Below are positions 15,184 to 20,429 of a stretch of DNA of 47,954 nucleotides, piece by piece. How positions within the stretch are numbered: the stretch's first letter is position 1; each line of letters begins with the position of its first letter. Under the pieces are notes generated by a model, which saw only the letters and a list, made by a program, of their open reading frames with translations, did not search any database and was not told the origin of the DNA. The stretch lies in the NCBI GenBank assembly GCA_947459175.1, contig CANHCT010000005.1, positions 1 to 47,954 of the forward strand, read 5' to 3'. The translations under genes were made by a program, and so were the position numbers. The stretch is from Hymenobacteraceae bacterium. GTDB lineage: Bacteria > Bacteroidota > Bacteroidia > Cytophagales > Flexibacteraceae.

Positions 15184-15191
15184 TATATTTG
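15184..15191 (+). promoter_or_regulatory. -7 promoter box of fic
   Basis: TATATTTG followed by CGGCA matches TAnnTTTG exactly. A TTTG at 15166-15169 inside the palindrome is the only nearby -33 candidate, at a short 14-base distance. Transcription would start near 15198, which excludes the TTG at 15189 as the translation start. Confidence 0.5.
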
Positions 15192-15212
15192 CGGCAGCAT
15201 CGCCTTCAGACA

Positions 15213-16322
15213 GTGGCAAAGTACATTTACGAAAATAAGGACTGGACGAATTTCAGGTGGCGGGATGCCGACATCAATGGCGTTTTCGGAGAAGTGCGGT
15301 ACCTACAGGGTAGTATCCTCGGACAGATGAGCACACTGGGCTTCGCTGCCCGGGAGGAGGTAACGCTTAACACCTTAACCCTCGATGTCGTTAAATCCTC
15401 TGAAATTGAAGGAGAAAAACTGGACTACAATCAGGTTCGGTCATCCCTCGCAAGGCGGTTGGGAATCAACATGGCTGGCTTGGTTACAGCAGGAAGACAT
15501 GTGGAAGGGATTGTGGAGATGATGCTCGATGCTTCCCGGAATTACCGGGAGCCGCTTACTGAAAAACGCCTGTTTGGATGGCATTCAGCGCTTTTTCCTG
15601 CGGGGCACAGCGGCATCCATAAAATCGAAACCGGGCAATACCGGACGGGAGAGATGCAAATTGTATCAGGTGCTTTGGGAAAAGAAAAGGTGCATAATGA
15701 AGCCGTGCCTGCAGCCAGGGTGCAGGAAGAAATGGACAGATTTTTAAGTTGGTTTAACGAAAACCAACAAATCGACCCTGTACTGAAATCCGCTATCGCC
15801 CATTTCTGGTTTATCATCATCCACCCCTTTGACGATGGCAACGGCAGAATGGTAAGGGCCATCTCCGATTTAATGCTTGCCCGGGCCGATGGAACAAGCG
15901 AACGGTATTACAGCATGTCAAACCAGATATTGGTGGAACGAAAGCAGTATTACCAGATTTTGCAGAAGGTTCAGCACAGCAGGGATGATATTACCGAATG
16001 GTTGCTCTGGTTTTTGCATTGCCTCAAAAATTCACTTTTGGCCACCGAAGAAACCCTGCAAAAAGTTTTAAGAAAGACCGCTTTCTGGAAAATCCACGAA
16101 AACAGCGGAATCAACCCAAGGCAAAGACTGATTCTGAACAAGCTTTTTGACGGATTTGAAGGAAAACTGAAATCTTCCAAATGGGCAAAAATTGCAGGAT
16201 GTTCTCCTGATACAGCATTGAGAGACATTAAAGATCTGATAGAAAAAGGAATTTTACGGCAGGAGCAGCAAGGCGGAAGAAGCACAAACTACGACCTTTG
16301 TAAATTCTTATGTCAAAAGTGA
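15213..16322 (+). CDS. Fic-family protein AMP-transferase (DUF4172-Fic-wHTH)
   Basis: Fic proteins attach AMP or related groups to target hydroxyls. I place the start at GTG 15213 (MAKYIYENKDWTNFRW), giving 369 residues. A TTG at 15189 adds eight residues but lies inside the likely -7 box. Residues 1-80 match DUF4172 and contain the inhibitory motif Ser62-xxx-Glu66-Gly67 (SSEIEG), making this a class II, self-inhibited Fic. The catalytic motif HPFDDGNGR is intact at 204-212, with His204. The C-terminal 70 residues form a winged helix (WAKIAGCSPDTALRDIKDL), so the protein may also bind DNA. It converges on rpoB across a shared terminator. It looks like a stand-alone gene with an elaborate operator. 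Confidence 0.9.
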   Translation: MAKYIYENKDWTNFRWRDADINGVFGEVRYLQGSILGQMSTLGFAAREEVTLNTLTLDVVKSSEIEGEKLDYNQVRSSLARRLGINMAGLVTAGRHVEGIVEMMLDASRNYREPLTEKRLFGWHSALFPAGHSGIHKIETGQYRTGEMQIVSGALGKEKVHNEAVPAARVQEEMDRFLSWFNENQQIDPVLKSAIAHFWFIIIHPFDDGNGRMVRAISDLMLARADGTSERYYSMSNQILVERKQYYQILQKVQHSRDDITEWLLWFLHCLKNSLLATEETLQKVLRKTAFWKIHENSGINPRQRLILNKLFDGFEGKLKSSKWAKIAGCSPDTALRDIKDLIEKGILRQEQQGGRSTNYDLCKFLCQK

Positions 16323-16392: not shown

Positions 16393-16420
16393 AAAAGCCA
16401 CCCCGCAAGAGGTGGCTTTT
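16393..16420. terminator. Bidirectional terminator between fic and rpoB
   Basis: A 10-bp stem AAAAGCCACC (16393-16402) / GGTGGCTTTT (16411-16420) around an 8-base loop gives a T-run on both strands. It ends transcription of fic (+) and rpoB (-). Finding a terminator directly after rpoB means that rpoC is not read from this transcript. Confidence 0.85.
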
Positions 16421-16440: not shown

Positions 16441-19400
16441 TTAGTCCATCGTAATTTCCAGTGCAAGGCCTCTCAGCTCGTGCACCAGTACATTGAATGA
16501 TTCCGGAATATTGGGCTTCGGCATGTTTTCTCCTTTCACAATGGCCTCATAGGCCCTTGCTCTTCCTACTACATCATCCGACTTTACGGTCAGAATTTCC
16601 TGCAGGATGTGGGAGGCACCGAATGCTTCCAAAGCCCAAACCTCCATTTCTCCGAAACGCTGACCACCAAACTGGGCTTTACCTCCCAATGGTTGCTGCG
16701 TAATGAGAGAGTATGGTCCGATGGAACGGGCGTGCATCTTATCGTCTACCAGGTGACCGAGTTTCAGCATGTAGATGATACCCACGGTTACTTTCTGGTC
16801 AAATCTTTCACCGGTCAGGCCGTCATATAGGTAGGTCCTTCCGAAATCCGGCAAACCGGCTTCCTTCAGTTCGCTTACTACCTCTTCTTCGGTGGCACCG
16901 TCGAAGATAGGCGTGGCATATTTTCTGCCAAGCTTTCTTCCTGCCCAGGCCAGTACGGTCTCATAAATCTGACCGATGTTCATCCTTGAAGGTACACCGA
17001 GCGGATTGAGCACGATATCCATCGGCGTGCCGTCCTGAAGGAAAGGCATATCTTCCGGACGCACAATCTTGGCTACCACACCTTTGTTTCCGTGGCGGCC
17101 CGCCATTTTATCGCCCACTTTCAGTTTGCGTTTTTTGGCAATATACACCTTGGCCAGTTTTACAATACCGGTTGGCAATTCGTCACCCACCTCAATGGCA
17201 ACCCTTTCCCGCTTGAAACGGCCCGAAATTTCATTGCGCTTTTTCAGGTAATTCTTTACCAGATCCACCACCATTTTATTCAGGCGGGAATCGTCGGTCC
17301 AGTTTTCGAGCACCAGGTCTGCGATAAGATTGGCTTCTTCCTGTACATTGTAGTTGCTCTCATCACGGTAAGGATTCTTTTCGGGGAACAGGTTCTCAGT
17401 GATGTTTTTCCGGCTGAATTTCACGCCCTTGGACATGATTTCATCGCCAAATTTGTGCTTGATGCCTTTCGAGTTTTTCCCTTCTATCAGAGCGAGAAGC
17501 TTATCGATGGCTTTATTTTTCAGCTCAATCAGATCTTTGGAGTATTTCGATTTCAGAACATCGAGTTCTTTTTTCGAAGCAGCCCGGAGGTCTTTGTCTT
17601 TGCGGGGGCGTGAGAAAAGCTTGGTATCAATGACCACACCTTTCATAGACGGAGGTGCTTTCATCGAAGCATCTTTTACATCTCCGGCTTTGTCACCGAA
17701 AATGGCACGAAGCAGTTTTTCTTCGGGTGTAGGATCGCTTTCTCCTTTCGGGGTTATCTTACCCACAAGGATATCGCCTTCTTTCACCTCGGCACCAACA
17801 CGGATAATGCCATCTTTGTCAAGGTTGCGAACTGCCTCTTCGCTTACATTCGGAATTTCAGAGGTCAGTTCTTCTTCGCCACGCTTGGTTTCTCTTACCT
17901 CCAGTTCAAATTCTTCGATATGCAGAGAGGTGAAAATATCATCCGATACTACCTTTTCCGAAATCACAATGGCATCTTCAAAGTTGTATCCCTGCCAGGG
18001 CATAAAGGCCACCAGCATATTCCGTCCCAGGGCCAGCTCACCACCCTGTGTGGCGTATCCCTCCACCAGAATCTGAGATTTGGCCACCCTGTCACCCTTG
18101 TTTACAATCGGGCGGTGGTTGATGCAGGTATCCTGGTTGGTACGGCGGAATTTGGTCAGGTTGTAAGTGCGGATATCGTTGTCGAACTCCACCATTTTTT
18201 GGTCTTCGGTCTGATCGTATTTTACAACCAGCTTATTCGAATCCACATAAATCACTTCACCATCTCCTTCAGCCGCAATCATGGTTTTGGAGTCTGAAGC
18301 TACCCGCTCCTCCAGGCCGGTTCCCACAATGGGAGCCTCGGGACGAAGCAAAGGTACTGCCTGACGCTGCATGTTTGAACCCATCAGGGCGCGGTTGGCA
18401 TCGTCATGCTCCAAAAACGGAATCAAAGAGGCGGCAATCGAAACAATCTGGTTTGGTGCCACATCCATGTAGGTGAGGTTGGTTGGCTCCACAAAAGGGA
18501 AGTCACCTTCAAACCTTGCTTTTACCCTGTCCTGATGGAATTCACCGGTTTCGGACATTTTGGCTTTTGCCAGGGCTATGTTGTGTCCGTCTTCTTCTTC
18601 GGCGGTAAGGTATTCAACCGGTTGGTCGACCAGAATTTTTCCTTCGCTGATTTTACGATAAGGCGTTTCAATAAAGCCCATACCATTGATTTTGGCATGT
18701 ACACAGAGGGAAGAAATCAAACCGATGTTGGGACCTTCCGGAGTCTCAATGGTGCAAAGACGGCCATAGTGTGTGTAGTGCACATCCCGCACCTCGAATC
18801 CGGCTCTTTCTCTTGAAAGTCCTCCTGGCCCGAGGGCAGAAAGTCTTCTCTTGTGTGTAATCTCAGCCAAGGGATTGGTTTGATCCATAAACTGAGAAAG
18901 CTGATTGGTGCCAAAGAATGAATTGATTACTGAAGACAAAGTCCGGGCATTGATCAGGTCAACGGGTTTGAAATCCTCATTGTCCCGGACATTCATTCTT
19001 TCTTTAATGGTCCGGGCCATACGGGCCAAGCCTACGCCGAACTGGGCATACAATTGCTCTCCTACGGTGCGCACCCTTCTGTTTGAAAGGTGGTCAATAT
19101 CATCCACAACGGCTTTTGAATTGATCAGACCGATGAGGTATTTTACAATCATGATGATGTCTTCCGTGGTCAGTACTTTTACACTGCTTGCGGTAGACAA
19201 TCCCAGTTTTTTGTTGATTCTGTAGCGGCCTACATCTCCCAGGTCATATCTTTTGTCTGAAAAGAACAGGTTTTGGATAATGTCACGGGCGGTCTGCTCA
19301 TCGGGAGCATCTGTATTTCGAAGCTGACGGTAGATTTGCTCAACCGCTTCTTTTTCAGAGTTGGAGGGATCCTTCTGAAGCGTATTGTAGATGATGGTGA

Positions 19401-20316
19401 AATCGGTCGAGTTCACATCCTCCCGGTGTACGATTACAGATTTGGACCCGGAATCCATAATAACTTCCAGGTCAGTATCTGTGATGATGGTATCCCTCTC
19501 GAGCAATACTTCGTTACGGGCAATGGAAACAACCTCGCCGGTATCCTCGTCCACAAAATCTTCTGTCCAGGATTTCAGAACCCTTGCTGCCAGCTTGCGG
19601 CCCAGCAATTTCTTCTGATTGGTTTTGTTTACATTGATTTCCTCCGACAATCCGAAGATGTCCAGAATTTCCTTGTCAGAACCGAATCCTATGGCACGAA
19701 GCAAAGTGGTCACAGGAAATTTCTTTTTCCGGTCGATGTAGGCATACATCACATTGTTTACATCGGTGGCAAACTCAATCCATGAACCTTTAAACGGAAT
19801 GATTCTGGCGGAATACAGTTTGGTTCCGTTGGTGTGTTTGCTCTGCGCAAAAAACACTCCGGGAGAGCGGTGCAACTGAGATACAATCACCCTCTCGGCT
19901 CCGTTGATAACAAAAGAGCCTCTGCGGGTCATGTAGGGGATGTTGCCCAGAAACACCTCCTGTTCAATGGTTTGAAAATCCTCGTTTTCTTTGTCGTTGC
20001 AGGAAAGCCTGAGTTTGGCTTTCAGCGGAACGGAATAGGTGAGGCCCCTGTCGATGCATTCTTCTACGCTGTATTTCGGAGGATCTACATTGTAATCGAT
20101 GAACTCAAGCGTAAAATTTTCTCTCGAATCAGAAATCGGAAAGTTTTCTGAGAAAACCTTGAAAAGGCCTTCGCCGATTCTTTTTTCTACGGGAGTTTCC
20201 AGCTGAAAGAAGTCTTTAAACGACTGAAGCTGAACATCTAAGAAGTCCGGATAATCTATTGCGGGTTTTACCGACGCGAATGAAATCCTGCCGGATTTGG
20301 TTACAGTTTTGCCCAA
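16441..20316 (-). CDS. rpoB: RNA polymerase beta subunit
   Basis: A complete 1291-residue RpoB. Landmarks include the N-terminal lobe ([27 protein letters not shown]), the rifampicin region with [25 protein letters not shown] and [17 protein letters not shown], and the C-terminal switch and clamp segments ([34 protein letters not shown]). The Asp, His and Ser positions usually changed in rifampicin resistance carry the sensitive-type residues. The gene is alone. Upstream is a divergent IscA-type gene rather than rplJ/rplL, and downstream are a terminator and a convergent fic rather than rpoC. Such isolation is rare in bacteria. A promoter candidate lies in the 138-base upstream gap. Confidence 0.98.
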
Positions 20317-20353: not shown

Positions 20354-20361
20354 CAAAACTA
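20354..20361 (-). promoter_or_regulatory. Candidate -7 box of rpoB
   Basis: Minus strand TAGTTTTG followed by CACC matches TAnnTTTG, 37 bases before the rpoB ATG. A TTG lies 23 bases upstream, slightly far. It supports rpoB having its own promoter. Confidence 0.45.
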
Positions 20362-20398: not shown

Positions 20399-20429
20399 TT
20401 TGTGGAATGATTTTTGAAAGTTAATTTTG
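20399..20429 (+). promoter_or_regulatory. Promoter of the IscA-type gene
   Basis: TTTG (20399-20402), 19 bases, TAATTTTG (20422-20429) followed by CA: a full consensus Bacteroidota promoter. It is divergent from the rpoB promoter and would start transcription about 20 bases before the ATG at 20455. Confidence 0.65.

Follow-up and report, generated by a model that had tools for sequence, protein, structure and literature searches.

In the genome described here, the RNA polymerase gene rpoB lies apart from rpoC and from rplKAJL, on a contig of its own. In bacteria, rpoB and rpoC are almost always adjacent in one operon, and co-transcription is a natural explanation of the equal supply of the beta and beta-prime subunits. 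Our data show that the two genes are genuinely separated, with faulty assembly excluded as the cause, and that this is a trait of whole families and not a peculiarity of this genome. Breakage of the operon was very probably rescued by a separate sigma-A-type promoter for each gene; the balance of the subunits would then depend on how strong each promoter is, on translation and on turnover.

The window, the whole stretch of DNA that was analysed, is 47,954 bp long and makes up all of contig C5 of a 3.01-Mb Bacteroidota MAG of 243 contigs (G000). The features around rpoB are as follows.

15189..16322, plus strand: Fic/DUF4172 gene (Pfam), convergent with rpoB
16393..16420, no strand assigned: strong hairpin resembling a terminator, located where rpoB and fic converge, with its U tract on the rpoB transcript
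16441..20316, minus strand: rpoB, RNA polymerase beta subunit, complete 1291-aa ORF with a TTG start at 20316
20354..20361, minus strand: presumed -7 box of the rpoB promoter, TAGTTTTG, 45 nt before the start codon
20399..20429, plus strand: promoter-like TTTG-N19-TAATTTTG of the iscA-type gene (direct reading of the sequence; consensus from PMC6847099)
20455..20781, plus strand: IscA/Fe-S biosynthesis-type gene, divergent from rpoB (Pfam PF01521; synteny)

The RpoB protein (1291 aa) is full length, matches all six RNA_pol_Rpb2 Pfam models and is 91-92% identical over its full length to RpoB of G001-G003. A profile search found it to be the sole PF00562 match in the genome, and rpoB is therefore single-copy. 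The original prediction, made from the DNA letters, had placed rpoB between a bidirectional terminator with a convergent fic gene on one side and a divergent IscA-type gene with its own promoter on the other, and this arrangement was borne out. The hairpin is strong (RNA fold -28.4 kcal/mol, z -4.0, more exactly -3.96), both flanking genes were identified by Pfam, and the promoter-like sequence of the iscA-type gene is of the Bacteroidota type (TTTG at 20399-20402, a gap of 19 nt and TAATTTTG at 20422-20429). In the synteny comparison, the fic gene was unmatched among the ORFs flanking rpoB in relatives. Because the window is the entire contig C5, rpoC is missing on both sides of rpoB, as predicted.

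The sole PF04997 match in the genome is a single-copy rpoC of 1448 aa at C6:32241. It lies mid-contig, 32 kb and ~11 kb from the ends of the 47.6-kb contig C6, and is followed by DUF3467, an E1 dehydrogenase gene and a TPR gene. rplJ and rplL are present in one copy each at 16.5-17.4 kb of the 41.5-kb contig C10. The order on C10 is tRNA-Tyr, tRNA-Gly, tRNA-Thr, tuf, tRNA-Trp, secE, nusG, rplK, rplA, rplJ, rplL and tmRNA, where tuf, secE, nusG, rplK and rplA were named by position and size. Thus rpoB, rpoC and rplKAJL are on three contigs, every locus mid-contig, and rpoB has neither a same-strand rpoC directly 3' of it nor rplJ/rplL 5' of it. Since rpoC keeps DUF3467 and rplKAJL keeps tuf-secE-nusG, the canonical neighbourhood is intact in two pieces, without rpoB. 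The separation of rpoB from rpoC and from rplJ/rplL was therefore correctly foreseen, and the search across the genome and its relatives that had been proposed for rpoC, rplJ and rplL gave three loci here and a split that recurs in relatives. A second complete rpoBC operon is excluded, since both genes are single-copy.

In the window's genus (G000, G003 and G004), the tmRNA gene directly after rplL takes the canonical place of rpoB (L006 9527-9859; L187 6714-7045; L188 8282-8613). A tmRNA gene beside rplL was not found in the other family members examined.

Foreign contigs or misjoined reads could part genes that are neighbours in the living organism, and a MAG of 243 contigs with 2.9% contamination gives some room for this. 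Such an assembly or binning artefact is nevertheless extremely improbable. The three loci all lie mid-contig, and rpoB and rpoC are both preceded by the same genus-level -7 boxes. Identical junctions are present in independent sister MAGs. Three further species of the genus (G001, G002 and G003) share the divergent iscA-rpoB junction, G001 has the order rpoC, DUF3467, E1 gene, G004 has rpoC followed by the E1 gene, and G003 and G004 have the rplL-tmRNA junction. The small DUF3467 ORF of G004 was not picked up by the ORF picker, and in G002 and G003 the contig that carries rpoC stops inside that gene. In G005, which belongs to another genus, iscA lies ~0.8 kb from rpoB. The split is also present in G053, a single contig of 4,919,337 bp (4.9 Mb) with rpoB at 0.85 Mb and rpoC at 2.70 Mb, and in the few-contig genomes G030, G090, G063, G050 and G173. 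Distances between the two genes on the same contig are 2.4 Mb in G030, 2.2 Mb in G090, 1.4 Mb in G173 and 1.0 Mb in G063. Because the junctions and the split recur in independent genomes, the artefact reading is refuted, and the misassembly against which the original prediction had warned is excluded.

Separation of rpoB from rpoC was scored in 36 genomes from five families of the window's order (f1, nine; f2, seven; f4, ten; f18, eight; f20, two). Among the 11 genomes of the window's family, f1, the two genes occupy separate contigs or widely spaced positions in every genus but g6, a sister genus whose genome G009 keeps the tuf region-rplKAJL-rpoB-rpoC-DUF3467 order. G004, from whose assembly rpoB is missing, was counted as split because other genes sit upstream of its rpoC, and G010 was not scorable. 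In G006, the two genes are 37 kb apart on one contig with rpoC upstream. G101 (f2) is probably split as well and stands outside the 36, its rpoC being near a contig end. Three genomes of f20 are unsplit, including G077 and G100 with adjacent rpoB and rpoC; in G065 (f20) the break between the genes falls exactly at contig ends, and they are most likely adjacent. The genes are together in the remaining scorable families of the order and in 69 of 69 genomes outside it (72 were drawn across the phylum). Named relatives are mostly unsplit, and one outside the order is split: in Flavihumibacter stibioxidans (Chitinophagales), rpoC is 47 kb from rpoB.

Other arrangements were also seen. A Saprospiraceae MAG has two ORFs of 252 and 334 aa between rpoB and rpoC (L030 9524-11283), which by eye are methyltransferase-like and glycosyltransferase-like, and this insertion is a possible intermediate of operon break-up. 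At four loci (L034, L039, L041 and L070), rpoB and rpoC are together and rplKAJL was not found upstream; in Niabella (L041), a separate contig carries rplL, and rpoB is just 0.8 kb from the locus edge.

The split is derived, because the sister genus represented by G009 retains the full canonical operon. A quick IQ-TREE run on concatenated RpoB and RpoC (54 rows), with which FastTree agrees in outline, requires four changes between split and unsplit, three of them forced by starred branches; when the labels were shuffled, the mean was 17. The tree had been expected to prove several origins, but the AU test does not reject a single clade that unites the order's split rows (p 0.30). Several origins are therefore claimed from taxonomy, breakpoints and promoter sequence, and at least by taxonomy operon breakage is recurrent. 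The GTDB families f1 and f20 each contain unsplit members, and the Flavihumibacter split sits outside the window's order. The breakpoints also differ. In G029 (f20) rplKAJL-rpoB is intact and only rpoC is gone, in G027 (f18) ~6.6 kb lies between rplL and rpoB, and in f1 rplKAJL, rpoB and rpoC are all three apart. The sequence 3' of the rpoC -7 box varies by group, with TTTGCAGGCT in f1 and TTTGCGGTCTTC in f20, while f4 and some members of f2 and f18 mostly have a TTTGC-N-GGTTCAA-like sequence. A single ancient split at, or close to, the root of a large Cytophagales-like clade, with the operon re-assembled in G009 and the unsplit f20 genomes, would agree with the AU result for one clade and with a grouping of f1 with f2/f4/f18, which was likewise not rejected (p 0.58). 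It would, however, require the full canonical gene order to be re-created in G009, and it conflicts with the unsplit members that GTDB places within f1 and f20 and with the different breakpoints of f20, f18 and f1. We consider a single split very unlikely.

The promoter consensus of Bacteroidota is TTTG/TAnnTTTG (PMC6847099). TAnnTTTG was sought within 200 nt upstream of each gene, some stretches being shorter than 200 nt, and the expectation was taken from shuffles. A -7 box precedes rpoB in 19 of 23 split genomes (shuffle expectation 3.0) versus 1 of 31 unsplit genomes (4.0), and rpoC in 21 of 23 (2.4) versus 1 of 32 (2.9); part of this contrast reflects coding against intergenic sequence, because in unsplit genomes a good deal of the stretch is coding, and coding DNA is in itself unfavourable to promoter motifs. 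TTTGCAGGCT is located 5' of rpoC in 9/9 split genomes of the window's family. In the window's genome, rpoC is preceded by TTTTG-N20-TACTTTTG ~137 nt before its ATG. At the rpoB box, four species of the genus (G000, G001, G002 and G003) share the sequence TAGTTTTGCACCCT without change. In F. johnsoniae promoters the -7 box is TAHHTTTG, and the rpoB box TAGTTTTG has a G at a position where G is almost never found there (PMC6847099). A -33 element ~19-21 nt upstream is present for iscA and rpoC and weak for rpoB. The assignment of the rpoB box is therefore less certain than that of rpoC. In the split f20 genomes (G029 and G052), rpoB is without a box and a TATATTTG box is present 5' of rpoC; together with the position of rpoB beside rplL in G029, this is the pattern to be predicted if rpoC alone had to gain a promoter. 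An E. coli-type promoter scan was set aside as not relevant to the window's phylum. Judged from sequence, both genes, and not rpoB alone, carry a genus-conserved Bacteroidota -7 box that is lacking in nearly all unsplit relatives. The flanking promoter and terminator signals are consistent with the separate rpoB and rpoC transcripts of the original prediction.

We propose that an ancestral tuf-secE-nusG-rplKAJL-rpoB-rpoC-DUF3467 operon was broken in an ancestor of most of the window's family. rplKAJL would have remained after tuf-secE-nusG, where in the window's genus the tmRNA gene now follows rplL, while rpoC would have departed with DUF3467 and rpoB would have relocated elsewhere. Each of rpoB and rpoC would be transcribed from its own sigma-A-type (Bacteroidota -33/-7) promoter, with predicted leaders in the window's genus of roughly 120 nt for rpoC and about 35 nt for rpoB, and the rpoB transcript would be closed by its own terminator. 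As rpoB and rpoC are apart, each with a promoter-like sequence, the cell must balance the subunits without a shared message. Loss of coupling may be tolerated because the output of beta and beta-prime is matched by promoter strength and translation, and surplus subunits are probably removed. Among sampled relatives with an assignable start codon, most use TTG for rpoB, whether or not the operon is split, whereas rpoC starts at ATG. TTG is possibly a tuned weak start codon, and its presence in both groups means that the tuning of beta at the level of translation may be older than the split. In the unsplit genomes, the rpoB-rpoC spacers contain a strong hairpin in 21/30 cases (z <= -2.5 against mononucleotide shuffles; for example L170, L171, L183, L008 and L011), with varying, unrelated sequences. 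These hairpins suggest an element of intercistronic control or processing, and as a lead only, transcription of rpoB and rpoC may already be partly uncoupled in unsplit genomes.

Other means of balancing were considered. Equal gene dosage is not supported as the means in G053, because rpoB is ~0.85 Mb and rpoC ~2.2 Mb from dnaA, distances that differ more than twofold. It is unlikely that the several families which lost beta/beta-prime coupling maintain balance by dedicated trans-acting or leader-based control acquired with the new promoters. A dedicated device, either autogenous control or one factor that regulates the two separated genes together, is quite unlikely. The conserved ATCGTCTCnnAnCGA just before the rpoC start (L002 8190-8204), present in 5/5 species of the genus examined, and the rpoC leader of the predicted length would suit such a device. 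Yet ATCGTCTCnnAnCGA was not seen outside the window's genus, inspection revealed no obvious element common to the rpoB and rpoC leaders, and an Rfam search of both loci found no leader family. We favor separate promoters, with balance probably through promoter strength, translation and turnover.

The rplL-rpoB-rpoC operon has been described as conserved across most bacterial genomes (PMC2584045). The split genomes have the same single-copy genes, proteins and neighbours as the canonical rplKAJL-rpoBC operon (tuf-secE-nusG before rplK and DUF3467 after rpoC), but the operon is broken at rplL/rpoB and rpoB/rpoC into three loci, each presumably transcribed on its own. This is similar to gyrA and gyrB in Salmonella and many other bacteria, where the genes of equimolar subunits lie at distant sites, are controlled separately and differ in their distance from the origin (PMC8359277). 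rpoB and rpoC here are likewise two subunits needed equally and encoded apart, although the split state is common for gyrA/gyrB and the exception for rpoB/rpoC. Cyanobacteria and plastids, with split rpoC1/rpoC2 (PMC2758279), also depart from the simple rpoB-rpoC layout. In that case the beta-prime polypeptide itself is cut in two, whereas the split seen here leaves both proteins whole and removes only their linkage. No published description of a clade-wide separation of rpoB and rpoC was found in the open-access literature searched, a result that does not prove there is none.

Methods that presume rpoBC adjacency, such as amplicon, synteny and contig-quality checks, will fail in the split families. 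The -7 boxes that are present in split and absent in unsplit genomes give predictions open to test. A split clade beside unsplit sisters offers a direct test of the role of the operon in the stoichiometry, assembly and regulation of RNA polymerase.
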